The translations under genes and the position numbers were made by a program. This document shows, in pieces, positions 2,061 through 19,352 of a stretch of DNA of 20,691 nucleotides. Origin of the DNA: Acidobacteriota bacterium (lineage in GTDB: Bacteria > Acidobacteriota > Vicinamibacteria > Vicinamibacterales > UBA8438). The notes below the pieces were generated by a model. That model was not told the origin of the DNA. It did not search any database and saw only the letters and a program-made list of their open reading frames with translations. The stretch lies in assembly GCA_003533545.1 (NCBI GenBank), contig DQEK01000457.1, positions 1 through 20,691 of the forward strand. Reading direction: 5' to 3'. Position 1 is the stretch's first letter, and the number at the start of each line of letters is the position of its first letter.

Positions 2061-2113
2061 GGCGTTCTCAGTTCGGAGCGATGTGGTGACGTCGCGGGGC
2101 CGCGAACAGCGGA

Positions 2114-3223
2114 CTATTCGGAAAGGGCGTCGACATCGAGAAGCGTGTCCAGGGCTATTTGCCCAGGCTCCAGAATTCCGGCTACCTCCTGGGCTGCCAC
2201 GACGCGTTCGGACGCGGCGACGTCGATCCGAACGTGTTCGGGGTATAGCGACAGGCGGTGGCGTTCGATGATCTGTTCCAACTGGGTGACATCGCCTCCG
2301 GCGATGAGAGCGCGCGGTAGTGCCGAAACGATGTCTGGCGGCGGGAGGAGACGGGCGTCGTTAAGGCCGCCTTCGAGTGCGGCGGCGAGTCGGCGTATCT
2401 CCGGCAGGCGTCGGTCGCGTTCGTTCGATCGCACTGAGACGCCCATGAATTCGTAGGCCCCCCCCAAATACGTCTTGGCCTCGCTGAGGTTCATGAAGTT
2501 CACCAGTGTTTGGCCGCCGGCTTCCGTGATGAGCGAGAGGGCCGGTTCTTGAAGCATCGCCGCGTCGATTTGACCGATTCGTAGCGCGTCAAAGAGGTTC
2601 GTCCCGATGGCGGCGAATCGGACTTGGTCGGCGTTTACGCCGGCCTGATCGAGCAGGAACAGCAACAACGCGTGGTCCGCGTTGCCAAGACCCGAGATTC
2701 CGACTGTGTAGTTTTCGAGTTCGCGGATAGCGCCGATGGTCCCTGCCTGTTGAGGAGAAACAGCCAGCGCGAACAGCGGCAATCGGCCCGTCGACGCAAC
2801 GCGCCTGACGGCCGCGCCGTTCGCGGCGGCTTGTAGCGCGACGTCGAACGAGGTGCCGGCGTAGTCGACAGCGCCTCCGACGAGGGCCTGCATGGCAGCG
2901 CTGCCTCCGCGGGTATAAACGAGTTCAGCATTGAGGCCCTGCGCTGCGAAGTGGCCTCCTGCTCGTGCCATCTCATAGGGCACCACGCAGAGTAGCTGAC
3001 CGCAGAAGGCGAGTCGCACAGCGACGGTTCCGTCAGTCGGCTTTGCGGCGCAGGAACTGACGGCCATGACGCCGGCCACACCGACGAGGCTCTTGAGCGC
3101 AGTTCGCCGGTCCCAGGTGTTCCCTGGGTTGGGCCTACTTGGAGCACCCCTGGGCGAGAGGTTCCTCTCGTGGTCACGAACGGGGCCGACTAGGCCTGGA
3201 TTCGTCGCGTCACAGCAGCCCAT
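2114..3223 (-). CDS. ABC transporter substrate-binding lipoprotein (NMT1/THI5/SsuA-like)
   Basis: This 369-residue protein is the probable ligand receptor of the importer. A twin-arginine-like motif (DRRTALKSL, residues 38-46) precedes a hydrophobic stretch and a lipobox-like VSSC with C58, so it may be a Tat-exported lipoprotein. The mature part begins with a strand ending in FCGQLLCVVPYEMARAGG, followed by GLNAELVYTRGGSAAMQALVGG, the NMT1/THI5-like periplasmic-binding fold. The reading frame is open further upstream to 3310, but that would overlap the preceding gene, whose stop is at 3255. The ATG at 3223 is preceded by AGTAGG and is preferred. Ligand unknown. The long polar stretch before the twin arginines (about 37 residues) is unusual for a Tat signal. 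Confidence 0.85.
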   Translation of the reverse strand: MGCCDATNPGLVGPVRDHERNLSPRGAPSRPNPGNTWDRRTALKSLVGVAGVMAVSSCAAKPTDGTVAVRLAFCGQLLCVVPYEMARAGGHFAAQGLNAELVYTRGGSAAMQALVGGAVDYAGTSFDVALQAAANGAAVRRVASTGRLPLFALAVSPQQAGTIGAIRELENYTVGISGLGNADHALLLFLLDQAGVNADQVRFAAIGTNLFDALRIGQIDAAMLQEPALSLITEAGGQTLVNFMNLSEAKTYLGGAYEFMGVSVRSNERDRRLPEIRRLAAALEGGLNDARLLPPPDIVSALPRALIAGGDVTQLEQIIERHRLSLYPEHVRIDVAASERVVAAQEVAGILEPGQIALDTLLDVDALSE

Positions 3224-3254
3224 GGTACCTACTTGCTTTAGCGCCTCGATCGGT

Positions 3255-3797
3255 TCACTGGGCCACGTACTCGGTGGCGAACTCTTTGAGTCGTTCGCTC
3301 CGCAGTCCAATCGTTTCCGCTTCGGCCATGGCCCGTTCCTGGTCCCAGCCGTCTTGTTTCACGCGCTTGATGAACCACATGGCGCCGACCCGGTTCGCCG
3401 AGGCGCAGTGGATGTAGGCCGGCTGATTCGCGGTGTCTGCGATTGCGGCGAGGAACTCTTCGGTCACGTCGGGGTTCGGTGCCCGGAATGGAATGTGAAT
3501 GTACTTCAGGCCTGCCTCCGTGGCTGCCGCCTGACTGGCTCCGATGTTGGCACCTTCTTCTTCCGCGGTGCGAAAGTTGATGACCGAGGCGAAACCGAGC
3601 TGCTTCAACGCCGGCATTGCCTCGGCCGGCGTGGCTCCGGCGCAGGCGACGGTTGCGTCAATCCGCGTGTAATTTCTAACACCCTCTGGTGCTTCCTGGG
3701 CGCCTAGCGTGGCGGGAGTCCAGAACCCGAGTGCCAGACCGAAAAAGAGGCCGCCCGCGAGCAGGGGCGACCGCACGGTGCGGTGAACGATGGACAT
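3255..3797 (-). CDS. Exported DUF442-like phosphatase/rhodanese-fold protein
   Basis: This 180-residue protein has a signal peptide ending near residue 34 (ATLGAQEAP). The body matches the tyrosine-phosphatase-like domain known as DUF442 or beta-lactamase-hydrolase-like domain: YTRIDATVACAGATP, then ALKQLGFASVINFRTAEEEG, then the catalytic loop YIHCASANRVGAMW. The loop is H130-C131 with four residues before R136 (CX4R), one shorter than the classical CX5R phosphatase loop and closer to rhodanese-like loops, so hydrolysis of phosphate is not assured. The ATG has AAGGAG five bases upstream. Only 31 bases separate it from the binding-protein gene, so it may be co-transcribed with the importer, but a functional link is not evident. 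Confidence 0.85.
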   Translation of the reverse strand: MSIVHRTVRSPLLAGGLFFGLALGFWTPATLGAQEAPEGVRNYTRIDATVACAGATPAEAMPALKQLGFASVINFRTAEEEGANIGASQAAATEAGLKYIHIPFRAPNPDVTEEFLAAIADTANQPAYIHCASANRVGAMWFIKRVKQDGWDQERAMAEAETIGLRSERLKEFATEYVAQ

Positions 3798-3925: not shown

Positions 3926-4282
3926 ATGTTACAAATATGTGGACCGCGGCTTTGGTTGTGCGCTGTCGCGGCTGGTTTGGTTGTGGGTTGCGGCGGACCT
4001 GGATTCGATTCGGCTTCATCCGTCCCCGAAGCGGTGGTTGAGCCAGCTGCGCTCGATATTGTGGTGCTCAGCGTCGAGGGCATGACCTGAGGCGGCTGTG
4101 CCCTGGCCGTGCGCCAGGCCCTCTTAGGGGTGGACGGAGTCGTTGATGCCAAGGTCTGGTACGACGACAAGCGTGCCGAGGTACGTTACGCCCCGATGGT
4201 CGTCGACACTGTCGCGATGCTGTTGGCAATCGAAGCCGCCGGATTTGCCGCGTCAGTGATCAACGACGATGACGTCGAATAG
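3926..4282 (+). CDS. merP: MerP-like heavy-metal-associated lipoprotein, probable selenoprotein (Sec at codon 55, TGA 4088-4090)
   Basis: Read with TGA 4088-4090 as selenocysteine, this is a 118-residue protein. Residues 1-22 are a lipoprotein signal with lipobox LVVGC (C22). Residues about 43-112 form one heavy-metal-associated (HMA) domain: the strand LDIVVLSVEG, the metal loop GMT-U-GGC (U55, C58), helix ALAVRQALLGVDGV, then VVDAKVWYDDKRAEVRY and the final AIEAAGFAA helix. The family loop is GMTCxxC, so the TGA replaces exactly the first metal-binding cysteine and the frame stays intact on both sides. A hairpin fitting a bacterial SECIS follows at 4102-4118. The role inferred from the family is to bind a soft metal ion such as Hg(II) at the outer face of the membrane and pass it to the transporter encoded next. 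Its 3' end overlaps the merT-like gene by 14 bases. The alternative, a nonsense-mutated pseudogene, is less likely. Confidence 0.85.
4102..4118 (+). promoter_or_regulatory. Candidate bacterial SECIS hairpin in the merP-like gene
   Basis: CCTGGC at 4102-4107 pairs perfectly with GCCAGG at 4113-4118 around a five-base loop CGTGC. The loop begins 17 bases after the in-frame TGA, and G is the second loop base. Bacterial SECIS elements are known to sit about 16-37 bases after the UGA with a G in the first two loop positions, so the fit is good. It lies inside the coding frame, as expected for bacteria. Confidence 0.65.
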
Positions 4283-4631
4283 CCTGCGACAGCGTTTGCC
4301 GGCCGCGACTGGAGTCGTAGCGGCAGTGCTAGCCTCAAGTTGCTGCCTGCTACCGTTGGCCCTGATCGTGACCGGTGTGACTGGTGCCGGCCTGATGATG
4401 ACGATGATGCGTTACGAGTGGTTGACTTTTCCGGTTGGCGTTGGTGGTCTGATTGGCGCCTACATACTGTACTTTCGGGCGCAACGTCGCTGCGCTACGA
4501 CCGCGTGCCGGTTCGTGAGCCAGCGGCGTACGCAGATCATGTTGGGTGTCTCGACCGTGGTTGTGGTGGTCGCGATCCTTTTGAAATTCTTCCCGTCCTG
4601 GACTGCCGACCTGCTACAGCAGCTAACCTGA
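4269..4631 (+). CDS. merT: MerT-like mercuric/heavy-metal ion transporter
   Basis: This 120-residue inner-membrane protein has three hydrophobic segments (about 12-33, 40-70 and 88-106). The first holds the vicinal cysteine pair of MerT in ASSCCLLPLALIVTGVTGAG (C25, C26). The cytoplasmic loop holds C75 and C80 (RCATTAC), matching the second cysteine pair of MerT, and the length is normal for the family (about 116 residues). The known route is transfer of Hg(II) from a periplasmic MerP to the first pair and then to the second. The start overlaps the merP-like stop by 14 bases and has no good ribosome site, so it is probably translationally coupled. No merR or merA is present in the window, so resistance rather than simple metal transport cannot be claimed. 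Confidence 0.85.
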   Translation: MTSNSLRQRLPAATGVVAAVLASSCCLLPLALIVTGVTGAGLMMTMMRYEWLTFPVGVGGLIGAYILYFRAQRRCATTACRFVSQRRTQIMLGVSTVVVVVAILLKFFPSWTADLLQQLT

Positions 4632-7930: not shown

Positions 7931-8377
7931 TTACGGCTTGTGAACGTTGTAGACCGCTAGCTCACCGTCGTCGTCGAATGAAATCACCGGAAATTCCTGA
8001 GGATTGGGGCCCTCCATGCCGGGTGAGCCGACTGGCATGCCTGGGACGGCGATACCCGTGATGTCGGGCCGCTCGTTCAGCATTCGCTTGATGTCTTCGG
8101 CTGGCACGTGCCCTTCGATGACGTAACCGTCAACAGTGGCCGTGTGGCACGACGACACGCGCTCGGGCACGCCGTTCTCAGTTTTGATCGGTGTAACACT
8201 GGGCACGTCGGTGGTGTTCACGGTGAATCCCGCGTCTTTGAGATGATTGACCCATCCCATGCAGCACCCTCAGGTAGGCGATTTGTAGACCTCGATCACG
8301 GGTTCCTGGGTCCGTACGACGGTTAGCGAACCAACCCCTACGAGCAGCGTGAATATGGCGGTCAATGCCGTGCGCAT
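7931..8377 (-). CDS. DUF411 metal-binding protein, probable selenoprotein (Sec at codon 36, TGA 8272-8270)
   Basis: Read through the TGA at 8272-8270, this is a 148-residue exported protein. Residues 1-24 are a signal peptide (ALTAIFTLLVGVGSLTVV). The DUF411 domain follows: VIEVYKSPT-U-GCCMGW (U36, C38, C39), VNHLKDAGFTVNTTDV, GVPERVSSCHTATVDGYVIEGHVPA, and ITGIAVPGMPVGSPGME. The family has CGCC at the first site, so the TGA sits exactly on its first cysteine. The good ribosome site AAGGAG precedes the ATG at 8377, upstream of the TGA, whereas the ATG just after the TGA (8260) has none and would delete the signal peptide and metal site. A SECIS-like hairpin with loop GGTCAAT follows. DUF411 proteins are linked by family context to copper and other metal handling in the periplasm. 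Confidence 0.87.
8240..8258 (-). promoter_or_regulatory. Candidate bacterial SECIS hairpin in the DUF411 gene
   Basis: On the mRNA, GGGAUG pairs with CAUCUC (one G-U pair; a flanking U-A pair extends it to seven) around the seven-base loop GGUCAAU. The loop begins 17 bases after the UGA and opens with GGU, the loop bases known to matter in the Escherichia coli fdhF SECIS. Position and loop both meet the bacterial consensus. Confidence 0.72.
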
Positions 8378-8382
8378 GAAAA

Positions 8383-8388
8383 CTCCTT
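8383..8388 (-). promoter_or_regulatory. Ribosome-binding site of the DUF411 selenoprotein gene
   Basis: AAGGAG on the minus strand ends five bases before the ATG at 8377. It fixes translation start upstream of the internal TGA and argues that the signal-peptide segment and the DUF411 domain are one gene. Confidence 0.75.
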
Positions 8389-8538
8389 ACTAGCGACTAT
8401 GATGGCGTCCCGATTTTCGCCTATCAGGCTACTCGTTGTCCGGATGGTTGGCAACCCACGGGAGCGCCGCTGGCCGTTCGAGGCGAGTTACAGCGCTTGT
8501 GCGGTAATACTTGAGGGTGCCGTCGACCCCATTTCGGT

Positions 8539-9297
8539 TTACCCGCTGCGTCTTTGAGGCTGGTTCCTCGGCGGACGCTCAGCGTCGAGGGTTTGTTGAA
8601 TAACCTCCCTCGTACGGGTGATCAGTTCGCTCACGCGCTTGTCATCGTAATCCGTCGTGTCGATTGGTTCCCCGAGAATAACGTCGACATGTCCTGGGCG
8701 TGGCGCAAGGGTAGTTTTCGGGAGCAGGTCGAATGTGCCCCAGATGGTAACGGGCACAATGGGCACTCCTGCTTTCAGGGCAATCTTAAACACGCCAGGT
8801 TGAAATTTTTGTAGCTTGCCATCAGGACTCCGTGTGCCCTCTGGAAACACAGCCAGTGACCGTCCGTGTTTCACTCCTTCGATGACTTGGCGCAGACTGG
8901 CGACCATTTTTGCGGCGTTGCCTCTATCGATCGGGAAGTGTCCGGCGGTCCAGAGATGCCAGCCCATGAACGGCACATAGAACAGTCCCCGTTTAGCCAT
9001 GATTCGGAACGGGTGAGGCAGATAAGCAAATAACGCTGGCGTATCGATCAGGCTCGAATGGTTCGCCATGTAAACGTAGGGGCGGTCGGGTCTCACGTGT
9101 TCGACCCCGTGTACACGAATGCGGGCAAAGATGGACCATGCGACGAGCCGGCACCACCAGCGAGCACACCAAAACTGCTTATTTCCCGTCCGATCAAACG
9201 GCCAGACGAGTAACGAAAGGCTCCCCATTACGACGGTGTGGGTGTACCACAGCAGGTTTGCGAATGGCGCCCAGAGGTAGACGAAAAGAAGCTTCAC
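8539..9297 (-). CDS. plsC: 1-acyl-sn-glycerol-3-phosphate acyltransferase (PlsC-like)
   Basis: This 252-residue protein carries the acyltransferase blocks: NHSSLID near residue 79 (HX4D, catalytic H and D), then PFMGWHLWTAGHFPIDRGN, FPEGTRSPDGKLQKF (substrate-binding FPEGTRS) and VPIVPVTIWGT. A hydrophobic N-terminus (about 1-35) would hold it at the inner membrane. The known reaction is acylation of lysophosphatidic acid to phosphatidic acid in phospholipid synthesis. The start codon is GTG at 9297, six bases after the stop of the LON-domain gene, with no clear ribosome site, so translation is probably coupled. No ATG fits the N-terminus. Confidence 0.92.
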   Translation of the reverse strand: MKLLFVYLWAPFANLLWYTHTVVMGSLSLLVWPFDRTGNKQFWCARWWCRLVAWSIFARIRVHGVEHVRPDRPYVYMANHSSLIDTPALFAYLPHPFRIMAKRGLFYVPFMGWHLWTAGHFPIDRGNAAKMVASLRQVIEGVKHGRSLAVFPEGTRSPDGKLQKFQPGVFKIALKAGVPIVPVTIWGTFDLLPKTTLAPRPGHVDVILGEPIDTTDYDDKRVSELITRTREVIQQTLDAERPPRNQPQRRSG

Positions 9298-9303
9298 GAG
9301 GGT

Positions 9304-10065
9304 TCAGCGGGTCAGTGCTGCTCTGATGTAGAGCAGGTCGATGAGTGCCCGGGCGCGCGCGAGTGGACCTGGTTGCTCAAGCAGTCCAAGTCGATCGACT
9401 GGGTCGATGTCGATGATTTGAGCGATGCCGTTGGCGAGGTCTCTGGTCGCCATACCGTCGGGGACCTGTAACCCATTCATGGCGATCGGAATCAGGCCGG
9501 CAAGCTCTTCGTGCAGGTCGCGCAGTGCGACCTGGTCGTCCGCGGTGGGTTCTTCCCAAATTGGCTCGATGTGCGCCAGACGATACGGACGACTCTCGTC
9601 CTCGCCGGTGATCCGGAATTTCGTCAGGCCTCCGAGCACGATATTGTACCGGCCGTCTGGTAGCTCTTCAGATTCAGCGATGACCCCGACACATCCGATG
9701 GGAAAGATCGGTGGTCTGCCCTCGTACTCATCCTCGTGACCCGGTTCTAGGAGCACCATGCCGATGAGACGGTCACCTTCTAGGGCATCGGACACCATGT
9801 CGCGATAGCGTTGCTCAAAGACGTGGAGCGGCCGGGTCGCGCGTGGGAAGAGCATGATGTCCTGAAGCGGAAAAATTGGTATCGTCGGTGGCAGCGTCGT
9901 GGGAGCGTAGCCCCGGGTTGTCGGTTCCTGGGCAGTGGCCCATATCGGGGAGCACAGCACCGCGAAGACTGCAACGAGGTGTATAAGTCGCGAGGTGGTA
10001 CATCGACACTTGGGTCCTCCGGTGGTGGTGGTCATCTTGAAATTCGAGTTGGACGGGCACGTCAT
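9304..10065 (-). CDS. LON substrate-binding-domain protein with export signal
   Basis: This protein of up to 253 residues has a hydrophobic signal-like segment at residues 27-46 (IHLVAVFAVLCSPIWATAQ), then a LON N-terminal (PUA-like) domain beginning IPIFPLQDIMLFPRATRPLHVFEQRYRDM and continuing through GDRLIGMVLLEPG, FPIGCVGVIAESEELPDG and LTKFRITGE. No AAA+ or peptidase domain follows, so it is not Lon protease. Stand-alone LON-domain proteins are usually cytoplasmic; the apparent signal is unusual. The start may be the ATG at 10065 or the one at 10035; neither has a good ribosome site. The plsC-like gene follows after six bases. Confidence 0.82.
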   Translation of the reverse strand: MTCPSNSNFKMTTTTGGPKCRCTTSRLIHLVAVFAVLCSPIWATAQEPTTRGYAPTTLPPTIPIFPLQDIMLFPRATRPLHVFEQRYRDMVSDALEGDRLIGMVLLEPGHEDEYEGRPPIFPIGCVGVIAESEELPDGRYNIVLGGLTKFRITGEDESRPYRLAHIEPIWEEPTADDQVALRDLHEELAGLIPIAMNGLQVPDGMATRDLANGIAQIIDIDPVDRLGLLEQPGPLARARALIDLLYIRAALTR

Positions 10066-10221: not shown

Positions 10222-11361
10222 CTATTCGTGCGCGACCGCCGAAGCGCGTAGGCTCTGGACGGTTTCGATTACTCCCGCAGCGGCCGCGTCTATTTCTGCA
10301 GCGGTGTTACCCCGACCCAGCGAGAACCGGACGCTTCCTCGGAGCCTCTCTTCCGGCAAACCCATGGCACCGAGTACATAGCTTGGTTGAAGCAATGCGC
10401 TCGTACAAGCCGAGCTGGAGGACACGGCAACCTCTGGTAGACGCTTCATCAACTGGGTCCCGTCCACGTCCTTGAAACTGAGGCTCGTGGTGTTCGCCAG
10501 TCGTTCGGTACGGTGTCCGTTGACCTCGACACCGTCTAGGCCAGAGACGAGGGCAGATTCGAGCCGGTCTCGCAGCGCACCCACCCCGTCATCTGCTGGT
10601 AACGTTGCCGCGACCCCCATCCCAACAATGCCCGGGACGTTGAGCGTGCCGGAGCGCATGCGGCGCTCGTGGCCTCCCCCGTGGATGAGTGCCTCGCATC
10701 GCACCCTTGGTTCCTTTCGACGTACGTAAAGCAGGCCGATCCCCTTGGGTCCGTTGATCTTGTGGGCGCTCGCGCTCAGCAGGTCGATCCCCATACTCTG
10801 GACGTCGATCGGGGTCTTAGCAAACGACTGCGTCGCATCCGTGTGAAACAACACACCGCGTTCTTTGCACAGGGAGCCGATTCGTGCGATCGGATGCATC
10901 ACGCCGGTCTCGTTGTTGGCATGCATGATGGACACCAACAGGGTCTGGTCGGTGATCGCGTCAACAAGCTGGTCGAGGTCGAGTCGCCCGTCGGTGCCCA
11001 CGCCAAGATAGGTCACGTGCACCCCTTGCGCTTCGAGGATTTCACAGGTGTCGAGGACTGCCCGATGCTCTGTGGCCACCGTGACAATGTGTCGTTTCCG
11101 GTAGGCGGAAGAACGCATGACTCCCTGCAAAGCGAGGTTGTCAGACTCGGTGGCGCCACTGGTCCAGATGATCTCGCGCGGGTCAGCGCCGATGACCTGA
11201 GCCACTTGTTGCCGAGCCGTTTCGACTGCTGTCGCCGCATCGCATCCCAATGCGTGATGTCGGCTAGCGGCGTTGCCGAAGCGGTCCGTGAAAAACGCCA
11301 TCATCGCTTCGAGGACCCGTGGGTCGAGTGGGGTTGTCGCGTTGTGATCGAGATAGATCAT
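10222..11361 (-). CDS. Cysteine desulfurase (NifS/IscS-type, class V aminotransferase fold)
   Basis: This 379-residue PLP enzyme starts IYLDHNATTPLDPRVLEAM, the standard opening of NifS/IscS proteins. It has TSGATESDNLALQG, TVATEHRAVLDTCE (the PLP-stacking histidine), HANNETGVMHPI, FHTDATQSFAKTP, SASAHKINGPKGIG (the PLP-binding lysine) and the persulfide loop SSSSACTSALLQPSYVL with the catalytic cysteine. RFSLGRGNTAAEID closes the fold. It releases sulfane sulfur from cysteine for Fe-S clusters or thio-cofactors. The frame is open upstream, but the ATG at 11361 overlaps the stop of the terpene-cyclase-like gene by four bases (ATGA) and gives the family N-terminus. It is the last gene of the nine-gene operon; no IscU, SufE or other scaffold follows. 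Confidence 0.92.
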   Translation of the reverse strand: MIYLDHNATTPLDPRVLEAMMAFFTDRFGNAASRHHALGCDAATAVETARQQVAQVIGADPREIIWTSGATESDNLALQGVMRSSAYRKRHIVTVATEHRAVLDTCEILEAQGVHVTYLGVGTDGRLDLDQLVDAITDQTLLVSIMHANNETGVMHPIARIGSLCKERGVLFHTDATQSFAKTPIDVQSMGIDLLSASAHKINGPKGIGLLYVRRKEPRVRCEALIHGGGHERRMRSGTLNVPGIVGMGVAATLPADDGVGALRDRLESALVSGLDGVEVNGHRTERLANTTSLSFKDVDGTQLMKRLPEVAVSSSSACTSALLQPSYVLGAMGLPEERLRGSVRFSLGRGNTAAEIDAAAAGVIETVQSLRASAVAHE

Positions 11362-13004
11362 TTGAGCGCCGCGACTGAGAAGATTAATGGATAAAGTCGC
11401 TCTGAGTACCACAGTTTCGCGAAATACAGGCCGATCGGCGCTGGCGTCAGGTCGGTCTGCGTGGCGAGCCACTGGGCGCCCCGTTCGTTTCCTGTGGCAG
11501 CGACGGCCAGCGCAGTTTCTTCGATTGTGCCAAAGCTGCCGTTCTCGCGCTGCATCGCATACAGAAATTCCTCGCCGCGCCGCCGAACCTCGGTAGGCAA
11601 CAGATTGCCGCATTCGAGTACGCGCGCTGTTCCATACACTGGGTTCGTCTGGTCGGCGGTCCATGGATTTCCAAACCAAAGCGGGATCCAAGACCCGTCC
11701 GTCTGCTGGTTGTTCACTAGGTATCTAATTGCACGTTCCATTGCGCCGTTAATGCGTGGATTCACCCCGTACCACGCCTGCCATGCTCGCAGGGCGTGTG
11801 CCGTGAGGTCCGGGCTGCTTTGATCGAACGGCAGCATGCCCCAGCCCCGGCAGAATGTGGGAATGCCGCCGTCGCTGTTCTGCAGGTCGAGTAGCCACTG
11901 AGCACCGGCCGTTGCTGCTGCGCGAATCCCGGGGTCGTCACCAAGGACCGCGAGCGCGAGGAGGGCGCCGGAGGTGTCGTCCCCGTCGGGCACCGCACCT
12001 GGTAGGTTGCTCCACCCCCAACCGCCGGGTGCAGATTGGGTGTAAGGGTGAACCTCACCGTGCTGCTGGTCGAGTAGCCAACCCCGCAGATAATGCCGTT
12101 CATCGGTTGTGAATGCGCTGGCGCCTAGAGCGTTGATTGCCAGAGTCGTTACCCAGGTGGCCAAATTCGTGTCGATCGGCCAACTCCCGTCCTTGCGAAC
12201 TGACGCCGTCAGGAACTCAACTCCTTTCGCTGTGACCCGGTGATCTGCCAGGCCGCTACCAGCCAAACTCATTGTCACGAAACCTGTCAGGGGGGCGGCT
12301 TCGAGGAAACCGCCGGAGGTGGGTTGAATCGATTCCAAAATCCGTAACGTCCTCCGCTTTGTCAACGTTCGCATCGTTCGCGCGACACCGTTTGTAGACG
12401 GGCGGTGATGGTGCTGCGCTTGGCCAATCGCGATCAATGCCGGCAGGGCGTAGCTGACCACCGGCAGGCCGATCCATTTGAACCACGAGTGCGGTAGCGC
12501 CGAGAGCTCAAACGGGAGCACTGGGATGTGCTCCCACCCAAAGCGACCCGCGAGTGCACAGTGCGTCAGAATCGGCACGGCGAACGTTTGGTCTTCACCG
12601 TAAACGGCGCGGATCGCCCCGGTCAGGGACTCAGCGGTTATGGTTCCCACCTGGTTTTCGAGCCAGGCAGTGGCTTTGGTCGAACCAGGCGCGTTGTGCA
12701 TCGACAACGTGGCCCAAACGAGCGTCGTGGTGCTGATGTTGCTCGGACAGCCGGCGGCGTCGCCGAAGCCGCCATCGGGGTTCTGGTGGGTCGCGAGCCA
12801 CCGCAGGCCATTCCGCACGAGTTCATCGTGTCCCCCGACGAGAGAAAGCGCTGAGATCGCGGTTGTCGTCGAGAGCGGACTGGACGACAGCTCACCTTCC
12901 CAATGGCCCGCCTGGACTCGTGCCGCCAGGAGCCGGTCACGCAAGGCTGAGGTGTCCCATCGCGAGGAGCGCGTAGTAGGTATATTCGCAATCTGGTTCG
13001 TCAT
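11358..13004 (-). CDS. Squalene-hopene-cyclase-like class II terpene cyclase with DGDD motif
   Basis: This 548-residue protein consists of prenyltransferase/squalene-cyclase repeats. QW-type motifs are visible at about 74-80 (QNPDGGF), 269-275, 375-381, 433-439 (QQTDGSW) and 485-491. The acid motif of class II cyclases is D340-G341-D342-D343 within GGWGWSNLPGAVPDGDDTSG, which in relatives protonates a double bond or epoxide to start cyclisation. The C-terminus GLYFAKLWYSERLYPLIFSV is typical of bacterial squalene-cyclase relatives. At 548 residues it is shorter than hopene cyclases (about 630-700) and nearer to bacterial class II diterpene cyclases. Its 5' end overlaps the preceding prenyltransferase-repeat gene by 68 bases; the ribosome site is weak. 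The substrate is probably supplied by the DUF116-prenyl synthase of the same operon. Confidence 0.85.
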   Translation of the reverse strand: MTNQIANIPTTRSSRWDTSALRDRLLAARVQAGHWEGELSSSPLSTTTAISALSLVGGHDELVRNGLRWLATHQNPDGGFGDAAGCPSNISTTTLVWATLSMHNAPGSTKATAWLENQVGTITAESLTGAIRAVYGEDQTFAVPILTHCALAGRFGWEHIPVLPFELSALPHSWFKWIGLPVVSYALPALIAIGQAQHHHRPSTNGVARTMRTLTKRRTLRILESIQPTSGGFLEAAPLTGFVTMSLAGSGLADHRVTAKGVEFLTASVRKDGSWPIDTNLATWVTTLAINALGASAFTTDERHYLRGWLLDQQHGEVHPYTQSAPGGWGWSNLPGAVPDGDDTSGALLALAVLGDDPGIRAAATAGAQWLLDLQNSDGGIPTFCRGWGMLPFDQSSPDLTAHALRAWQAWYGVNPRINGAMERAIRYLVNNQQTDGSWIPLWFGNPWTADQTNPVYGTARVLECGNLLPTEVRRRGEEFLYAMQRENGSFGTIEETALAVAATGNERGAQWLATQTDLTPAPIGLYFAKLWYSERLYPLIFSVAALK

Positions 13005-13713
13005 CGGCCCAGCTGCCGCAGAACGACTTACCGGTCCACAACGTGTCCAGAAAGTCGAGCGTCGGCTCTTTCAGGTGTGCGAGTGAGATCTTCTGTCCAG
13101 AAAGCGCATGCAACGCAGTTGCTGTCGAGAGCAGGTCGGGCATGGGAGCGTCGGTCGTTGCTCTGAACCCCCCGTCGGGGTCCGCTCGGTCTAGCAGCCA
13201 CTGTACCGCGTCTCCAGGCACCGGGCTTTGCATTTGGCGTAGTAGCGTCACGGCTGCGGCGGTGGTGGGGGTCGTTTGTGCCAGCGAAGCGTCTCGCAGC
13301 GAGAACGCTGTCGGCGTGTGCCCGAGATCCTGTAGTGCGCCCCAGGCAAGAAAGCTGTGGTAGATGTTGTTACGGTCCCAAGCCGCGTTGATGCGCGCGA
13401 AAAGATCCGGGGCCGGTTGCTTTAACGTCGCCCAGCACCGAGCCAAGCAACAAAGGTGGACCAAGTCCAGACCGTCGCCGTTCTCGAACCCCTGAAGGTA
13501 ACTCCTGACGCCGGTGGGAAAATCCTGCTGCAAGGCAACCAGGCCCTCAAGCCCGAAGACCGTGTAATACAGGTCACTCTGGCCGGCGCGGTTCTGCACC
13601 CCGCCGTCTTCGTTGAATTGGGAGAGTAAATACTCCGCGACCGGACTAGAGGCGTCCTGAAGTAGATTCGGTGCCAGTCTCGCGACTTGCAGCATTTCGA
13701 GCTTCAAACTCAC
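12937..13713 (-). CDS. Small prenyltransferase/squalene-cyclase-repeat protein
   Basis: This 258-residue protein has alpha-alpha-barrel repeats like the beta subunit of protein prenyltransferases: SQFNEDGGVQNRAGQSDLYYTVFGLE (33-56), RADPDGGFRATTDAPMPDLL (176-195) followed by STATALHALSG, and the ending GSWADDEPDCEYTYYALLAMG (233-253). It has no DxDD motif and is half the length of a cyclase. D241-C242 could be part of a zinc site as in prenyltransferases, but the full D-C-H set is not evident. The start is GTG at 13713 with GAGGG upstream; an in-frame ATG lies at 13695. It overlaps both neighbouring genes by 68 bases and may form a partner or second domain for the DGDD cyclase. Confidence 0.78.
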   Translation of the reverse strand: MSLKLEMLQVARLAPNLLQDASSPVAEYLLSQFNEDGGVQNRAGQSDLYYTVFGLEGLVALQQDFPTGVRSYLQGFENGDGLDLVHLCCLARCWATLKQPAPDLFARINAAWDRNNIYHSFLAWGALQDLGHTPTAFSLRDASLAQTTPTTAAAVTLLRQMQSPVPGDAVQWLLDRADPDGGFRATTDAPMPDLLSTATALHALSGQKISLAHLKEPTLDFLDTLWTGKSFCGSWADDEPDCEYTYYALLAMGHLSLA

Positions 13714-15409
13714 TGCAATAGCCCTCGATCAGTTTCTCGCCGAAGATCTTGCCGACGATCCGTCGCATTAGTCCCTTAAGGGTCGGGCTCGCGAGGAATC
13801 GCAGCGACCGGATTGCATCTTCCTTGTAGGCCTCAAGGAGATCGTCGGCCTTGTCTAGTGCACCGCACCTGTTCGCGATGCGGCGTACGTCGTCCGCAAG
13901 ATCCTCGGCGCCTGTCCGGATGACCGACGCAATGCGTTCGCGGTCCTCGCCTTCGGTGCGTTTGTGAGCGATGGCCAAAATCAGTGAGAGCCGCACTTGA
14001 GCGAGGTCGTTTGAGTCGGCGTCGCCCTTGAAGTCCTCTAGGTCGTCTTTGATCTGGTAGGCAATACCTAGCGATTCACTGTATTTACCCAAAACATCGT
14101 GGGTGTCTGTGTCGGCGTCACTGAGGACCGCACCGATCCGTAAGGCAACCTCAAACGCTGCCGCTGTTTTCTGGCGGAAAATCTCTAGCACCTGCACGGA
14201 CGGGAGCGCTTGCGGATCGCGTGCCCAGAGCAGTTCTCGCCCTTGACCGCGGCTGAGGGTTACGTGGCCCTGCGCAGCTATGGACGCCAGCTGCACGTTG
14301 CCAAGTTCACCAAGCAGTCGATAACCCTCGCCCACCAAAAAATCGCCGATATTAAGCGCGACTGCTACGCCGACCTCGGTGTGCAGGGTAGGGCTGTCAT
14401 ACCGCTGTAGGTCACCGTCCTCGATGTCGTCGTGAATTAGGGACGCCTTGTGGAAACATTCGATCGCGACGCAAGCTTTCTTAACCTCGTCCGTCAGTTC
14501 CGGTTCGCCTTCCTGCCGGTCGGTTTCGAGGGCCATGTAGGTGCAGGCGGCGAGGTAGGGTCGCCACCGCTTGCCGCCCTTCTGGAGATACGCGCGAGCG
14601 ATCCGTGCCGTCTCGTCGTCCCCGGTCCGGCCCATGATGGCGCTGAGGGAGCCGGCGCTGAACCAGCCACGGACAGTGGTCTTTAGGTTGTCAAGGTCGA
14701 GTCGATAGGTCTTGTCGTCGGATGTCAAGTGAATCAGATCCCAGACCCAATCCAGATCGACCGTGGTGTTGATGCAATCGTCTTGCAGCAACGGGATTGC
14801 GACACCAGGTATGGCTGCAGCCTCCATGTGCGGGAAGCACTTTTCCAGCACATTGATGCAGCTTACGCCAACGATCGCCTCGATTTTCCCAGTCTCGATC
14901 ATTGAGCGAACGATGGCTGACCCTTCGGCAACCAGCACCGCATAGCCCAGACGTTCGGCTTCGACTGTCAGGTCTTGGATGGAGCACAGCCCGCACTCCT
15001 TGCAAAGTAGACCAAATTCGTCGAATGGGGCCGGGCACTTTTCTTCGACCCGGAGGCACTTTGGGATGAGGAGAAGCCGGCGATTGTAGGGAATTTGCGC
15101 TAGCGAATCATGCCAAGCGGCATTACTGACCAGAATCGAGGCATAGTCGCTGTAGCCCTGGTCGAGACCAGCTTCGGCGAGCACGGCGACGGTGTGTTCG
15201 GTCAACTCATCGAGCGTCAACGGTGGAATTGCGCGGACCCTTCTGACGTAGTCGTCCGTAACGGCTTTAAGGCGGACCCGGTCCTGCTTGTCGTCAGGAA
15301 TGTTCGATTGACTGGGGCGGTAGGTCTGACGCGGCACCGGTGACGGCAAACGCAGCGGAACCACCCGTTGTTCAACGTCGTCCACGGCTTCGGGGCTCAC
15401 AGGAGTCAT
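13646..15409 (-). CDS. DUF116-polyprenyl diphosphate synthase fusion protein
   Basis: This 587-residue protein fuses two domains. Residues about 60-225 are DUF116: LLLIPKCLRVEEKC, then C136-KECGLC (C136, C139, C142) followed by SIQDL, IEAIVGVSCINVLEKC and a closing DDCINTT, giving eight cysteines (118, 125, 136, 139, 142, 184, 191, 212) suited to Fe-S or metal binding. Residues about 250-560 are a complete trans-isoprenyl diphosphate synthase: GGKRWRPYLA, first Asp-rich motif LIHDDIED (D327-D331), ALNIGDFLVGEGYRLL, RQKTAAAFE and second motif YQIKDDLEDF (D455-D459). Residues -4 and -5 before the first motif are Ser and Ala rather than aromatic, which in the family favours chains of C20 or longer. 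It begins ten bases after the radical SAM gene. DUF116 has no settled function. Confidence 0.9.
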   Translation of the reverse strand: MTPVSPEAVDDVEQRVVPLRLPSPVPRQTYRPSQSNIPDDKQDRVRLKAVTDDYVRRVRAIPPLTLDELTEHTVAVLAEAGLDQGYSDYASILVSNAAWHDSLAQIPYNRRLLLIPKCLRVEEKCPAPFDEFGLLCKECGLCSIQDLTVEAERLGYAVLVAEGSAIVRSMIETGKIEAIVGVSCINVLEKCFPHMEAAAIPGVAIPLLQDDCINTTVDLDWVWDLIHLTSDDKTYRLDLDNLKTTVRGWFSAGSLSAIMGRTGDDETARIARAYLQKGGKRWRPYLAACTYMALETDRQEGEPELTDEVKKACVAIECFHKASLIHDDIEDGDLQRYDSPTLHTEVGVAVALNIGDFLVGEGYRLLGELGNVQLASIAAQGHVTLSRGQGRELLWARDPQALPSVQVLEIFRQKTAAAFEVALRIGAVLSDADTDTHDVLGKYSESLGIAYQIKDDLEDFKGDADSNDLAQVRLSLILAIAHKRTEGEDRERIASVIRTGAEDLADDVRRIANRCGALDKADDLLEAYKEDAIRSLRFLASPTLKGLMRRIVGKIFGEKLIEGYCSEFEARNAASRETGTESTSGRL

Positions 15410-15419
15410 CGTCTCTTAC

Positions 15420-16667
15420 CTATGTATACGCACCGAAGCCGAAAAACCAGTGCTTTTTCGCAAAACGGTAAATCCAGTTTTCCTCGGGGATCTCGTGGCC
15501 AGGGTTGTACTGGCTGGGCCTGGACCGCAATTCCTCAAGCTCGGTGGTCGCCGTCTTACGAATCGTGGTGTCACCGGCACCGTGCCGCGTGACGATCTGT
15601 TTGAGGAGGTCCGGTCGTTCCAAAACGATACATCCTTGGGTCGCTTTCGCTGCGGTCTTGCGGAAATCTTCCAAGAGCGGTGACTCGGTCATCGTCTTGT
15701 AAAGGTCGCCGTCGTGGTCCTGAATCTTCTCGTTGGCGAACTGGATGATCGGGCACGGTTCCACGTCGCCGAATGGACTAATGTGGTGGCTGATGCCGGT
15801 TGCGGCCGGGCAGAGAGCCTCACCCTTGTCGTCCCAGTAGGCGTCAATCAGGCCAATCGGCTTTCGGTTCCGCATGTCCATGACGAACCGGCGTATTTTC
15901 AGCACCTGCTCGGGGTCGAGTGCCAGCTGCGGGTTTGGTACCGGTCCCACAACTCGATAAGTATGGAACCAGCAATAGTGCACTCCCATGGAAATCAACT
16001 CTTCGATCCAGGCCTCACGGACGAGATCGTCGATGTTACTTTGACAGACACTCGTAGCTACGCCGGTGATTAGTCCGTTCCGGACACAGGCACGGATGCC
16101 TTCGAGCGTATGGTTGAGTACCCCGGCACGACCTCGTCTGGTGTCGCTGATCGACGCGGTGCCCTCGACGCTGATGAGCGGCGTGGCATTTCCGGCCTCG
16201 TGTAACTCCCGTGCGACCGCGTCGGTGATGTGATGGCCGTTAGTGAAGATCTGGAAGTAGCAGTCTGGGTGAGCCTTCAAAATTCGGATCAAATCAGGGT
16301 GCATGAACGGCTCACCGCCCAAGAGTCCGAAGAAGCTATTTCCGTGTTGTTTGGCGTTAGTGATCAGCGTATTCATGTCCTCGAAACTGATCATGTGCTG
16401 CGGTTTGTCGACATCCACCCAGCAACCCTGGCACCGCAGATTGCAGCTGTTGGTAATCGAAATGTAGAGGAACGGAGGGAAGGTGACCCCCTGTTTGAGA
16501 CGTTTCTTAAACCGCTGAACCGACCGGACGCCCTTGTAGCCGAAGTTGTAGGCGAACTTCCACAGAATGCGCGCGTCGGTTGAGCGCATCGTTCGATATC
16601 CGAGGCCGGCGGCCGCTTTCAGCATTGTGTCAAATGCCCCAATCAGTCGTTGTCGCTTGTTTGTCAC
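15420..16667 (-). CDS. Radical SAM protein with C-terminal SPASM-like cysteines
   Basis: This 415-residue enzyme binds a [4Fe-4S] cluster through C75, C79 and C82 (ITNSCNLRCQGCW) and SAM near GLLGGEPFMHPD (113-125). Downstream segments FQIFTNGHHITDAV and PLISVEGTASISDTRRG follow the barrel. C286, C305 (SPFGDVEPCPI) and C346 look like SPASM-type auxiliary cluster ligands. It would generate a 5'-deoxyadenosyl radical for hydrogen abstraction; the substrate is not known, and both a small molecule and a peptide are possible. The start may be GTG at 16667, overlapping the ferredoxin gene by 38 bases, or ATG at 16625 just after its stop. The ferredoxin gene upstream is a likely electron donor. Confidence 0.88.
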   Translation of the reverse strand: MTNKRQRLIGAFDTMLKAAAGLGYRTMRSTDARILWKFAYNFGYKGVRSVQRFKKRLKQGVTFPPFLYISITNSCNLRCQGCWVDVDKPQHMISFEDMNTLITNAKQHGNSFFGLLGGEPFMHPDLIRILKAHPDCYFQIFTNGHHITDAVARELHEAGNATPLISVEGTASISDTRRGRAGVLNHTLEGIRACVRNGLITGVATSVCQSNIDDLVREAWIEELISMGVHYCWFHTYRVVGPVPNPQLALDPEQVLKIRRFVMDMRNRKPIGLIDAYWDDKGEALCPAATGISHHISPFGDVEPCPIIQFANEKIQDHDGDLYKTMTESPLLEDFRKTAAKATQGCIVLERPDLLKQIVTRHGAGDTTIRKTATTELEELRSRPSQYNPGHEIPEENWIYRFAKKHWFFGFGAYT

Positions 16668-17499
16668 GAACGGTTTGAGACTTGGCCTGGCGCTTCTCTA
16701 ATTTGGCACGAGCCCGTGCGGTGCGCTCTTCGATGTCTTCCGCGGTGGGCAAAGTCATGAGCACTTCGTCCGGAATGTCGAGATCTTTCTTCAACTTGCT
16801 CAGACAGCGCTTCCGCTCGAGCAGAGCCTTTGATTCGTCCCGTTCGGTCGAAAATCGCTTCCGCGCGTCTCGCTGTCTCGTGCGGAGCGCTCCATATAGG
16901 TCGCCGCCGAGCAGGGTCGAAATATCAACCTTCATTGCTTCGCGTTGAATGTCCTCCTCTTTGACGATGTCGCCATTGATCGGACCCTTGCCGTATTTCG
17001 GGAACAGGATCGCGACTTCAGGGCACACCCGTGAGCAGGCAGGACAGTCGGTCTTGCAGTTATCCTCGTTTTGGACGGTGATCTGCTGCTGCTTGTCGAC
17101 GCCATAGACATCGAAAAGACAGAAAGTTAAGCATTGCATGCAGTTAGTGCAACGGTCGAAGTCGATGACCGGAAACCACGGCTTCCAAGCCTCAAGTTTC
17201 CTGGCACCGGTCGTTTCGCGCACTTCTCGGGCCGCGCCGAGTGGATCGCCGTCTGACAGGCTCCGGAAGTGCACTTCCTGACCCGGGGTCGCGGGAGGGT
17301 GTTTGTCTAGCAGGCCTAAAACCAGGACCGGTGCGTCGTCGGCGGGTGCCACCTCCTGACCAGCCACCGGCCGGGTCACTTCGAAGCCGTTGTCAAGTAG
17401 CGTCGACAGTGTCTGGAAGCGCTCGTCATCTTCGAGCCTCGTGCTTCCGGGGCCTTCGTAGAGCACCACACGCAGGTTCTTACCTTCCGTCCGCGTCAT
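16630..17499 (-). CDS. 2[4Fe-4S] ferredoxin-domain protein
   Basis: This 289-residue protein has a bacterial-type double-cluster ferredoxin in the middle: C117, C120, C123 and C127 (CTNCMQCLTFC), then C148, C152, C155 and C159 (CKTDCPACSRVCP). About 100 residues precede it without a recognisable fold. After about residue 180 there is a charged, probably helical or coiled-coil tail rich in Arg, Lys and Glu (for example ERTARARAKLEKRQAK). It likely feeds electrons to the radical SAM protein or another cluster enzyme of the operon. Its ATG overlaps the stop of the small cysteine protein by four bases (ATGA). The long flanks are atypical for a simple electron carrier. Confidence 0.85.
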   Translation of the reverse strand: MTRTEGKNLRVVLYEGPGSTRLEDDERFQTLSTLLDNGFEVTRPVAGQEVAPADDAPVLVLGLLDKHPPATPGQEVHFRSLSDGDPLGAAREVRETTGARKLEAWKPWFPVIDFDRCTNCMQCLTFCLFDVYGVDKQQQITVQNEDNCKTDCPACSRVCPEVAILFPKYGKGPINGDIVKEEDIQREAMKVDISTLLGGDLYGALRTRQRDARKRFSTERDESKALLERKRCLSKLKKDLDIPDEVLMTLPTAEDIEERTARARAKLEKRQAKSQTVRDKQATTTDWGI

Positions 17500-17810
17500 G
17501 TCAGGAGCTCCCTGACGATGTTGTCGGCCGAATCTTCCCGCATGTTCAGCACCTTGATGCCCTCATCCGGCACGGGGGTGCCGGCGGCGTGAAAAAGCCA
17601 CTTCACCGCGCGCGGATAGCAGGCCGCGATTTTCGTGCAGCCGCCACTGGCGATCTTGTTTAGCGCGGGATCTTTCCGCGCGGACATGTCGCACAGGTCC
17701 GCTACTGCATCGAAGGCTTGTCCTGAATCGCTCAGCCGGCGCAGGACGTCCTTCTTCACTTCGAGAGGTACGACCTTGGCGTAGGTGCAGTTGCAATACA
17801 GAATCTTCAT
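17496..17810 (-). CDS. Small cysteine-rich protein of unknown function
   Basis: This 104-residue protein (from the ATG at 17810) has five cysteines: C6 and C8 (YCNCTY), C40 (ADLCDMSARKDP), C58 and C64 (GGCTKIAACYPRAVKWLF). The spacing suggests a redox or metal site but matches no family I can name. The order of strand (MKILYCNCTYAKVV), helix and closing strand (IKVLNMRED) suggests a small alpha/beta fold. The ATG overlaps the CobW stop as TGATG; a GTG one codon earlier (17813) is also possible. Its stop overlaps the ferredoxin start. The tight coupling on both sides implies a defined role with these partners. Confidence 0.75.
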   Translation of the reverse strand: MKILYCNCTYAKVVPLEVKKDVLRRLSDSGQAFDAVADLCDMSARKDPALNKIASGGCTKIAACYPRAVKWLFHAAGTPVPDEGIKVLNMREDSADNIVRELLT

Positions 17811-18907
17811 CACGTCATCCGATGGGTCGGTGTTGGCCGACCCGGTCTGAGCTGCTCAAGGTGTTCCACGGTGGCCTGGACCGAGTCGATTGACCCCACG
17901 GCCTCACGGGTAACCGACTCAAGGTGCGATGGGTCGACTTCGGCCCGTAGATTGATCACCAACTCGCCGCCGCTGACGCGGTCGAGCAACGACTCGCGCA
18001 AGTCCGCACTACGGTCAACGCCTACCAAGCTGACGACCGACAGCGTCCCGGTGCCATCCTGTGAATCGAGGGTCATCTTCAGATGCGCAATATCCTTTCC
18101 AGTCTGACTCACACCGGCGCGGATTTTCTCGGCCAGTTCTACGAGTGTCTGGTTGCCGTCGAACGGCTCCTCAGATTGCAGCCGTACCGTGCAATTGAGC
18201 CAGCCAAGCAGAGCCTCACCTTCGGCATATACATCGTAGTCGATTTCAAGAGGCGGCGATGTGGGGGTATCCCCAGAAAGAACCGCCTCAAACCATGGTT
18301 CGACCTCCGTGCCGTCCTTAACTGAACAGGTAAAAATATCGGCACGTGGGTGGGTCTCAGCGAGCGCAGACCGAAGTCGTTCCAGGAATGCTGACGACTG
18401 GCTGTCGCACTTATTGATGACGATCAGATCCGCTTCCTGGAGCTGTTTCCGGTAAACGTAGACCACCTTCTCCGAAAAACTTCGTCCGTCTGCGAGCCCC
18501 AGAATGCGGGCGGCTCTCATGGGGTCGACCATGACACTAAGTGGCGCCACCGTGAAGCGTTCGCCATAAATGCGGCGTAGCGGGTAGGAGACCGTCGCCA
18601 CGAGGTCGGTGCAGCTGCCGACCGGTTCCGCGAGAAATAGATCAGGACGGGAACCCTCTGTCAGTCGCTCGGCAGCGTCAAGCAGTGAGTTGAAGCGGCA
18701 GCAGAAACATCCCCCAGTGATTTCTTCAACGGAAAAGCCTTTCGAACGTAGGAGTGTTGTGTCGACCAAACCGCTACTCTGGTCGTTGCAGATCAGTCCC
18801 ACCCGCTTCCCTTGATCGGTCAGATGTTGGGCCAGCCGGGCGACGGCGGTGGTCTTGCCTGCGCCTAGAAACCCTCCGATCATGACGTAGCGGGCGAGAT
18901 CACTCAT
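17810..18907 (-). CDS. CobW/G3E-family P-loop GTPase (metallochaperone-like)
   Basis: This 365-residue protein has Walker A GGFLGAGKTT at residues 11-20, the CobW metal motif GGCFCC at 65-70 (ITGGCFCCRFNSLLDA), LAEPVGSCTDL in the Walker B/switch region and NKCD for guanine recognition (IVINKCDSQ). A CobW C-terminal-like region follows. Family members hydrolyse GTP to deliver Zn, Co or another metal to a client. The frame is open upstream to 18967, but the ATG at 18907 puts the P-loop at the family position and overlaps the GcvH-like stop by eight bases. Its own stop overlaps the next gene. The client may be one of the cysteine-rich or metal enzymes of the operon. Confidence 0.88.
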   Translation of the reverse strand: MSDLARYVMIGGFLGAGKTTAVARLAQHLTDQGKRVGLICNDQSSGLVDTTLLRSKGFSVEEITGGCFCCRFNSLLDAAERLTEGSRPDLFLAEPVGSCTDLVATVSYPLRRIYGERFTVAPLSVMVDPMRAARILGLADGRSFSEKVVYVYRKQLQEADLIVINKCDSQSSAFLERLRSALAETHPRADIFTCSVKDGTEVEPWFEAVLSGDTPTSPPLEIDYDVYAEGEALLGWLNCTVRLQSEEPFDGNQTLVELAEKIRAGVSQTGKDIAHLKMTLDSQDGTGTLSVVSLVGVDRSADLRESLLDRVSGGELVINLRAEVDPSHLESVTREAVGSIDSVQATVEHLEQLRPGRPTPTHRMT

Positions 18908-19352
18908 GCCGTTGGCCCAGCATCTTGTCGATTGTCGTGTCCAGTAGTGTGACGTAGCCCTGAACATCGAGACAGTCCTCGCCAGGACGTCCGCGAATCT
19001 TGAAGAGCCACCCCTTGCCGTAAGGGTCGCTTGTCAAGAGTGTGACCTGGTCTTCTACCGCCGGGTTGAATCCTTCGAAGCGGCCTGTGAGGGGGGAGAA
19101 TATATCCGTGACAGCCTTGAAGCCTTCCGTCCACCCGATGACTTGGCCGGTCTCCACTTTGGCTCCTGTGCTGGTTTCGTATCCAAGTTCGACGATTTCT
19201 CCAAGCATGCGGACCGCAAACTTCGTGAAACCAATCCTCCACAGGTCGTCCTCTTCGTGTTCTAACCAACTGTGGCCGGCGGTGTACAGCCTGTTTTCCA
19301 GAAGCCGTGTGGAGAAGCGCGAACGTTTGTAGTGGATTTCTTCGACCGTCAT
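18900..19352 (-). CDS. GcvH-like lipoyl-carrier protein
   Basis: This 150-residue protein has the glycine cleavage H fold: HSWLEHEEDDLWRIGFTKFAV, then LGEIVELGYETSTGAKV, the lipoylation hairpin IGWTEGFKAVTDIFSPLTG with the predicted lipoyl lysine K79, and the ending LTSDPYGKGWLFKI, as in GcvH. No gcvT, gcvP or lipoate-attachment gene is in the window, so a role in glycine cleavage is not supported by context. The ATG at 19352 has no clear ribosome site. It is the first gene of the nine-gene operon; 127 bases separate it from the gene upstream and must hold the promoter, which I could not define. A C-terminal extension (GRPGEDCLDVQGYVTLLD) follows the H-domain. Confidence 0.87.
   Translation of the reverse strand: MTVEEIHYKRSRFSTRLLENRLYTAGHSWLEHEEDDLWRIGFTKFAVRMLGEIVELGYETSTGAKVETGQVIGWTEGFKAVTDIFSPLTGRFEGFNPAVEDQVTLLTSDPYGKGWLFKIRGRPGEDCLDVQGYVTLLDTTIDKMLGQRHE

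Follow-up and report, generated by a model that had tools for sequence, protein, structure and literature searches.

Nine consecutive genes on the minus strand of a contig from an Acidobacteriota bacterium (DQEK01000457.1, assembly GCA_003533545.1) are the subject of this analysis; the whole stretch of 20,691 nucleotides that was analysed is referred to here as the window. The genes encode, from first to last, a GcvH-like lipoyl-carrier paralogue, a CobW-type GTPase, a small Cys protein, a ferredoxin, a radical SAM enzyme, a DUF116 domain fused to a trans-prenyl diphosphate synthase, an alpha/alpha-toroid protein, a cyclase of the squalene-hopene cyclase (SHC) superfamily and a NifS-type cysteine desulfurase (Table 1). 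It is apparent from their synteny in other genomes, and from their co-occurrence even where they are dispersed, that the nine genes form one functional unit. This unit is proposed, with moderate confidence, to be a squalene-independent pathway to a cyclic polyprenoid that is radically modified, with an Hdr-like electron supply; the reactions, the order of the steps and the chain length are what we infer for it.

Synteny of the nine genes among relatives

GTDB genomes were scanned with the DUF116-prenyl synthase, yielding at least 556 relatives, and the best 80 of these at least 556 were kept. Since the 80 loci were picked by similarity, counts derived from them favour close relatives. According to the sequence-record labels, they come from the Acidobacteriota, Planctomycetota, Verrucomicrobiota, Hydrogenedentota and Omnitrophota. 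A gene was scored as present when its profile score exceeded thresholds set by the analysts, and a locus was considered fully flanked, as 34 of the 80 were, when at least 9 kb before and at least 8 kb after the gene were available.

Of the 34 fully flanked loci, 23 were found to have all nine genes; when the desulfurase is disregarded, 27 have the other eight. The remaining loci included one without the cyclase only (L006), one with five genes (L071) and one with two (L035). Among the 27 eight-gene loci, the genes lie on a single strand in 26 and were found by script to follow the gene order of the window in 20; L013, one of the seven exceptions, does match that order by tblastn. The desulfurase tally takes in a copy of 37–41% identity that is sited before the GcvH gene in many loci. 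When all open reading frames (ORFs) of 81 sequences (the 80 loci and the window) were clustered, the nine families, two of them merged by a fusion, were present in 31 to 81 of the 81 sequences; the most widespread family besides these was present in 12, and recurring families from the flanks of the window in at most 5. The complete set of nine was also found in Planctomycetales bacterium ZRK34 (L043), the sole one of the 80 records not labelled as a metagenome-assembled genome, so that the product could perhaps be found in culture.

Co-occurrence of dispersed genes and definition of the core

At 21 loci labelled as verrucomicrobial, some of them on short contigs, only the DUF116-prenyl synthase was seen, with or without the radical SAM gene. 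Seventeen genomes among these were tested for dispersed genes. The small Cys protein was located elsewhere in all 17 (in two pieces at contig ends in G065, and with an internal stop in G074), the cyclase in 16 (with an internal TGA in G071) and an operon-type GcvH of at least 190 bits in 16, G063 having only a weaker, canonical-like one.

Of 144 genomes sampled from the same phylum, 21 have the cyclase (E <= 1e-60), and exactly these 21 also have the DUF116-prenyl synthase fusion (E <= 1e-40); one further match in the fusion search (G252) covers the prenyl synthase half only. The probability that two such sets would be identical is approximately 1e-25 if the genes were independent, a figure that is not a true P value, as the genomes are related. 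The small Cys protein (E <= 1e-10) was found in 11 of the 144 genomes, every one inside the 21 with the core pair. The initial annotation had placed the prenyl synthase and the DxDD cyclase at the heart of a terpenoid pathway, and their shared distribution bears this out.

Divergent loci of the same phylum (L174, L176 and L177) have the arrangement (Cys-ferredoxin fusion)-radical SAM-DUF116/prenyl synthase-toroid protein-cyclase, the Cys half of L174 being weak (23 bits). In the stretches fetched, only the cyclase and the DUF116-prenyl synthase were seen at L171, and only the cyclase at L172, L173 and L175, with a weak toroid-profile match in the same ORF of L175. The core comprises, in this order, the Cys protein with the ferredoxin, the radical SAM enzyme, the DUF116-prenyl synthase, the toroid protein and the cyclase. 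The other three, GcvH, CobW and NifS, seem to be accessory. Of the 20 core-pair genomes examined, only 4 had an operon-type GcvH (at least 170 bits), the other 16 giving no match or none above 86 bits; no NifS was found at 4 of the 27 otherwise complete loci.

In the window's own family, the fusion was found in 20 of 28 genomes (whole in 17, in pieces in G001 and G007, and as the DUF116 half only in G008); no copy was found in the 32 genomes that represent the order's other families. The GcvH paralogue shares a contig with the fusion in 19 of the 20 family genomes, the exception being G027. Tandem pairs of GcvH-like frames, mostly of about 240–275 aa and about 1 kb apart, were observed in other families of the order (e.g. 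G043:C25, G031:C42, G057:C349, G047:C5 and G059:C29), families that do not have the DUF116-prenyl synthase.

The prenyl synthase, the cyclase and the toroid protein

The DUF116 domain has seven cysteines that are invariant in 34 of 34 aligned rows. The synthase half contains the two DDxxD motifs by which trans-prenyl diphosphate synthases are recognized, D327 D328 I E D331 and D455 D456 x x D459, each in 34 of 34 rows, and both PDB and fold matches were to prenyl synthases. Bulky residues at positions -5 and -8 from the first DDxxD motif set the floor of the active-site pocket, and hence the chain length. In the synthase, these positions are occupied by Ala (-5) and Phe (-8) in all 34 rows. 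At -5, three geranylgeranyl diphosphate synthases in the PDB (1wy0, 5jfq and 6kd7) have Tyr or Phe, and Ord1 (9v4g) has Gly; in a Caulobacter synthase (3oyr), the residues at -5 and -8 are Ala and Ile. Application of the rule to Ala -5 and Phe -8 suggests that the product is perhaps C25–C30.

The cyclase was aligned with squalene-hopene cyclase 1gsz, the SHC residue numbers being derived from the alignment coordinates of that entry. D340, D342, D343 and H403 pair with SHC D374, D376, D377 and H451, and W443, W331 and F384 with W489, F365 and Y420; all seven residues are invariant in 34 cyclase relatives. The cyclase thus has the DxDD acid and activating His that mark the class II enzymes of the SHC superfamily, and the catalytic roles of the aligned residues, including the pairing of that acid with that His, are presumed here to be those of SHC. 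An in-frame TGA in the cyclase of G277 raised the idea of selenocysteine, which was dropped, the L174 cyclase frame being unbroken to its stop.

In the window's family, 20 genomes bear the operon, and squalene/phytoene synthase (SQS_PSY, PF00494) was absent from 7 of these, including all five of one genus (g8), two of which are 94–96% complete. Given these absences, the substrate of the cyclase is probably the chain that the neighbouring fused synthase makes, and squalene is disfavoured. Membership of the hopanoid pathway was considered and rejected: the cyclase lies below the cut-off for hopene cyclase HpnF (TIGR01507; 75.7 versus 431.1 bits), the radical SAM enzyme below that for the adenosylhopene transferase HpnH (TIGR03470; 42.3 versus 225.05 bits), and of 60 genomes only one (G026) was found to have a canonical hopene cyclase, none being found in the window's own genome.

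The toroid protein has profile matches to the beta subunit of RabGGTase and to squalene-hopene cyclase. Beta subunits of protein prenyltransferases bind zinc through Asp, Cys and His. In an alignment of 31 rows (A4), no Cys or His of the toroid protein falls in an invariant column, a result that concerns the invariance of columns.

The radical SAM enzyme and its putative electron supply

The CxxxCxxC motif that marks the radical SAM superfamily (C75, C79 and C82) is invariant in 30 of 30 rows, as are C136, C286, C305 and C346. The last three may constitute a three-Cys, twitch/SPASM-like C-terminal set. The best PDB match is SkfB (6efn, 68.3 bits), followed closely by BlsE (67.3 bits), and PqqE is also related. 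SkfB forms thioethers and BlsE is a decarboxylase; since the three enzymes differ in chemistry, the reaction catalysed here cannot be named.

In L071 (Omnitrophota), the same slot (8364-9950) is filled by a non-orthologous protein closest to B12-type radical SAM models, and in L053, L067, L069, L073 and L076 a radical SAM protein of 38–42% identity beside NifS is a stand-in. That the slot is kept by other radical SAM proteins supports the inclusion of a radical enzyme in the unit, as originally annotated; as differing types fill it, a radical SAM step seems to be required, with its type variable.

The small Cys protein, in which C7, C9, C41 and C65 are invariant, suggestively but not significantly resembles the N-terminal Fe-S domain of HdrA, a comparison in which the same fold and the Cys pattern CxC...C...C were sought. 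This link is made on account of a VIA-align match, the order of the cysteines and domain fusion. The protein is fused to the ferredoxin in L022, L041, L076, L077, L174, L176 and L177. Foldseek alone gave no match for it at E <= 0.001, and when the PDB was searched by sequence with the family, the five proteins returned were designed or unrelated ones. The ferredoxin has eight cysteines that are invariant in 30 rows (C117, C120, C123, C127, C148, C152, C155 and C159). No HdrB, HdrC or LplA-type ligase was found by Pfam in the nine genes and 15 further ORFs of the window. The eight best HdrA matches in the Acidobacteriota (L159–L166) all contain an in-frame TGA inside the matched region, L165 also a TAA; the TGA could encode selenocysteine in a fusion of the HdrA-MvhD type.

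The GcvH-like protein has a Lys (K79) at the predicted place of lipoylation in 28 of 28 rows, and so it qualifies as a predicted lipoyl carrier. It scores 78.6 bits against the GcvH equivalog (TIGR00527), below the cut-off of 115.85; a separate canonical GcvH (131 bits) is present at G000:C449. In the CobW protein, the P-loop and the GGCFCC motif are conserved in an alignment of 43 relatives. The desulfurase is scored at 440–476 bits by IscS/NifS models and lies below the cut-offs for IscS (TIGR02006; 463.5 versus 643.2 bits) and NifS (TIGR03402; 439.8 versus 530.75 bits).

Proposed pathway and alternative explanations

In the proposed pathway, the DUF116-fused synthase would make a linear polyprenyl diphosphate, perhaps of C25–C30, and the SHC-like DxDD cyclase would protonate and cyclize that chain or a derivative of it, probably with the toroid protein as a partner subunit. 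The radical SAM enzyme would next modify the (cyclic) terpenoid. The HdrA-N-like Cys protein and the ferredoxin would supply both the radical SAM enzyme and the DUF116 cluster or clusters with low-potential electrons, while GcvH, with its lipoyl dithiol, CobW and NifS would serve as accessory redox, metal, and sulfur or Fe-S suppliers.

Several observations weigh against this pathway. The evidence is confined to the gene set, motifs, synteny and co-occurrence. At L033, L042, L072 and L079, the DUF116-prenyl synthase stands alone, and in one of the 17 dispersed-gene genomes (G075) the operon-type cyclase was not found, though the Cys protein and the fusion are present. The chain length draws on the rule for residues -5 and -8 and on five aligned structures only. 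Comparison of the Cys protein with the HdrA-N profile gave a P value of 0.053, 1 of 20 column-shuffled controls scoring higher, and its HdrA fold match ties with those to unrelated Rossmann-like folds. Finally, of the 20 family genomes with the operon, 13 have SQS_PSY, and those without it are 65–96% complete assemblies.

The last of these points bears on the possibility that the cyclase represents a side branch of hopanoid or squalene metabolism, taking squalene from SQS or HpnC/D-like enzymes of the host. The genome of the window, which is 77.7% complete, does have two adjacent SQS_PSY genes (G000:C339, 2996-4659), the cyclase is SHC-like, and the scarcity of canonical hopene cyclases leaves room for another user of squalene. 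Such a branch is nevertheless highly improbable in view of the five g8 genomes that have the operon and no SQS_PSY, the distance of the cyclase from the hopene cyclase cut-off, and the 32 genomes from other families of the order, among which SQS_PSY was found in 28 and the fusion in none. The probability that the nine genes are simply a chance run is practically nil: only the dispersal of genes in the Verrucomicrobia speaks for it, and the idea was rejected, all nine occurring together in 23 of 34 loci and the core pair in the same 21 of 144 genomes. The initial annotation had held that genes that did not co-occur elsewhere would indicate such a run; this was tested, and both synteny and co-occurrence were found.

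Other alternatives accept the unit and differ as to its chemistry. IspH provides a precedent for reductive dephosphorylation, and the DUF116 Fe-S domain, with electrons from the HdrA-N-like/ferredoxin pair, could act similarly on a prenyl (di)phosphate, either by such a dephosphorylation or by reduction of a double bond; the cyclase would then work on a reduced chain, with the radical SAM reaction a separate second step. This is unlikely, with an appreciable chance of being correct. In all 80 kept loci, the search match extends over parts of both the DUF116 and the synthase half, the seven invariant cysteines would provide room for one full and one open-site cluster, and an electron-transfer role for DUF116 has been suggested (PMC5898192). 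Against it, no solved relative of the DUF116 half appeared among the 50 Foldseek rows listed, all of which were prenyl synthases, the half not having been searched alone, and the likeness to IspH is an analogy. It is rather unlikely that the product bears sulfur, passed as persulfide from NifS to a lipoyl-GcvH carrier and inserted by the radical SAM enzyme. The nearest solved relative of that enzyme by sequence, SkfB, is thioether-forming, a cysteine desulfurase is linked in 24 of the 34 loci with full flanks, and Hdr-like sulfur oxidation requires LbpA (PMC6067878). However, the decarboxylase BlsE scores nearly as high as SkfB, NifS is missing from some otherwise complete loci and the operon-type GcvH from most of the core-pair genomes examined, and the Fe-S-rich proteins give a desulfurase an ordinary task without any sulfur product. 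Thus, while the initial annotation had suggested a sulfur-bearing or radically modified terpenoid, the inclusion of a radical enzyme is upheld and the sulfur part gains no special support. Lastly, the cyclic terpenoid might be an electron carrier or anchor in a membrane redox system, with the Hdr-like, lipoyl and ferredoxin proteins as redox partners and not as biosynthetic ones. The association of an HdrA-N-like domain, a ferredoxin and a lipoyl carrier is consistent with this, but it is very unlikely: no additional family occurs in more than 12 of the 81 sequences, and hence the set is not accompanied by HdrB/HdrC, a flavoprotein or a membrane protein.

Comparison with known systems

The hopanoid pathway with HpnH resembles the operon in combining a DxDD cyclase of the SHC superfamily, with equivalents of His451 and Trp489, and a radical SAM enzyme, which in the case of HpnH attaches adenosine to hopene. 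The operon differs in scoring far below the HpnF and HpnH cut-offs, in having its own DUF116-fused synthase and in occurring in some hosts in which no squalene synthase was found. A fusion of the same kind, Psta_0175 of Pirellula staleyi (DUF116-polyprenyl synthetase), was noted in 2015 with a guess at an electron-transfer role; the available part of that paper mentions the fusion alone, and not the operon, the cyclase or their co-occurrence (PMC5898192).

Squalene-independent triterpenes provide a precedent for the C30 polyprenyl diphosphate route. The fungal enzymes TvTS and MpMS are class I chimeric enzymes (PMC9177416), and the gromomycins of Streptomyces involve GroF, likened to TvTS, with Rieske oxygenases (PMC12105684). 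The enzymes are different, and genes for DUF116, Hdr-like, GcvH or CobW proteins do not figure in the available portions of these two papers. In the sHdr-LbpA system, a GcvH-like lipoyl protein is linked to Hdr-type proteins and radical SAM genes (PMC6067878), and it is a precedent for a GcvH-like protein alongside an Hdr-type complex. It differs in that no HdrB, HdrC or LplA-type ligase was seen in the window and that terpenoid genes are the core of the operon. No description of the operon was found in the titles and abstract openings of the literature searched, a coverage outside which most subscription journals lie.

The gene set is kept in several phyla and its core pair is matched in presence and absence across the genomes sampled, and so it must make something that its hosts use. 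Alongside the hopanoids, it may represent a second way in which bacteria turn a linear isoprenoid into a polycyclic lipid using SHC-type chemistry. A more specific version, decidedly unlikely to be right in full, is that the operon makes a hitherto undescribed class of squalene-independent cyclic polyprenol lipids, a regular C25–C30 chain being closed from its far end by the SHC-like cyclase and then radically modified. A prokaryotic C30 tricyclohexaprenol has been suggested as the parent of tricyclic terpanes (PMC10319793). To link the operon to that compound is speculation. If true, it would supply a biological source for the 'tricyclohexaprenol'-type skeletons that geochemists have postulated to underlie the tricyclic terpanes (cheilanthanes) found in sediments and oils, with Acidobacteriota, Planctomycetota and Verrucomicrobiota as the makers, and were the product a tricyclic polyprenol, the origin of tricyclic terpanes, an old question of organic geochemistry, would become testable.

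Gene coordinates, junctions and flanking genes

The nine minus-strand ORFs and their named domains were confirmed, by ORF check and Pfam, at the positions originally annotated (Table 1). With the longest ORFs, the junctions from GcvH to NifS are overlaps of 68, 4, 4 and 38 bases, a gap of 10 and overlaps of 68, 68 and 334. CobW more probably starts at 18907 or 18883, and the first 68-base overlap is therefore probably an artefact of start choice. A NifS start at 11361 (MIYLDHNATTP) suits the family and leaves an overlap of 4 bases with the cyclase stop. Given that start, the earlier description of seven of the eight junctions as overlapping by 4 to 68 bases, with a gap of 10 at the other, is accurate.

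Table 1. Positions of the nine genes and of the flanking ORFs in the window
Feature	Positions	Strand	Basis or remark
GcvH-like lipoyl-carrier paralogue, 150 aa	18900..19352	minus	Pfam GCV_H 76.8 bits
CobW/G3E-type GTPase	17810..18907	minus	Pfam cobW 92.1 bits; start 18907 preferred, by inference, to longest-ORF start 18967
Small Cys protein, 105 aa, HdrA N-terminal-domain-like (suggestive)	17496..17813	minus	no Pfam family
Ferredoxin-domain protein, 289 aa	16630..17499	minus	Pfam Fer4-type matches
Radical SAM enzyme, 415 aa	15420..16667	minus	Pfam Radical_SAM 63.5 bits
DUF116 domain fused to trans-prenyl diphosphate synthase	13646..15409	minus	Pfam DUF116 and polyprenyl_synt
Alpha/alpha-toroid 'prenyltransferase repeat' protein, 258 aa	12937..13713	minus	Pfam Prenyltrans
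SHC-superfamily class II cyclase, 548 aa	11358..13004	minus	Pfam SQHop_cyclase_C/N
IscS/NifS-type cysteine desulfurase	10222..11361	minus	Pfam Aminotran_5 276.8 bits; family-fitting start 11361
Flank, one side: ABC transporter	556-3310		
Flank, same side: phosphatase-like, MerT-like, DUF2007 and SnoaL-like ORFs			
Flank, same side, continued: HpcH/HpaI, NIPSNAP, DUF411, acyltransferase and LON-domain ORFs			
Flank, other side: DUF4440 and DctM-type ORFs			

The MerT-like small membrane protein in the flank (window 4269-4631) scored 30.1 bits, slightly below the Pfam cut-off of 32.9.

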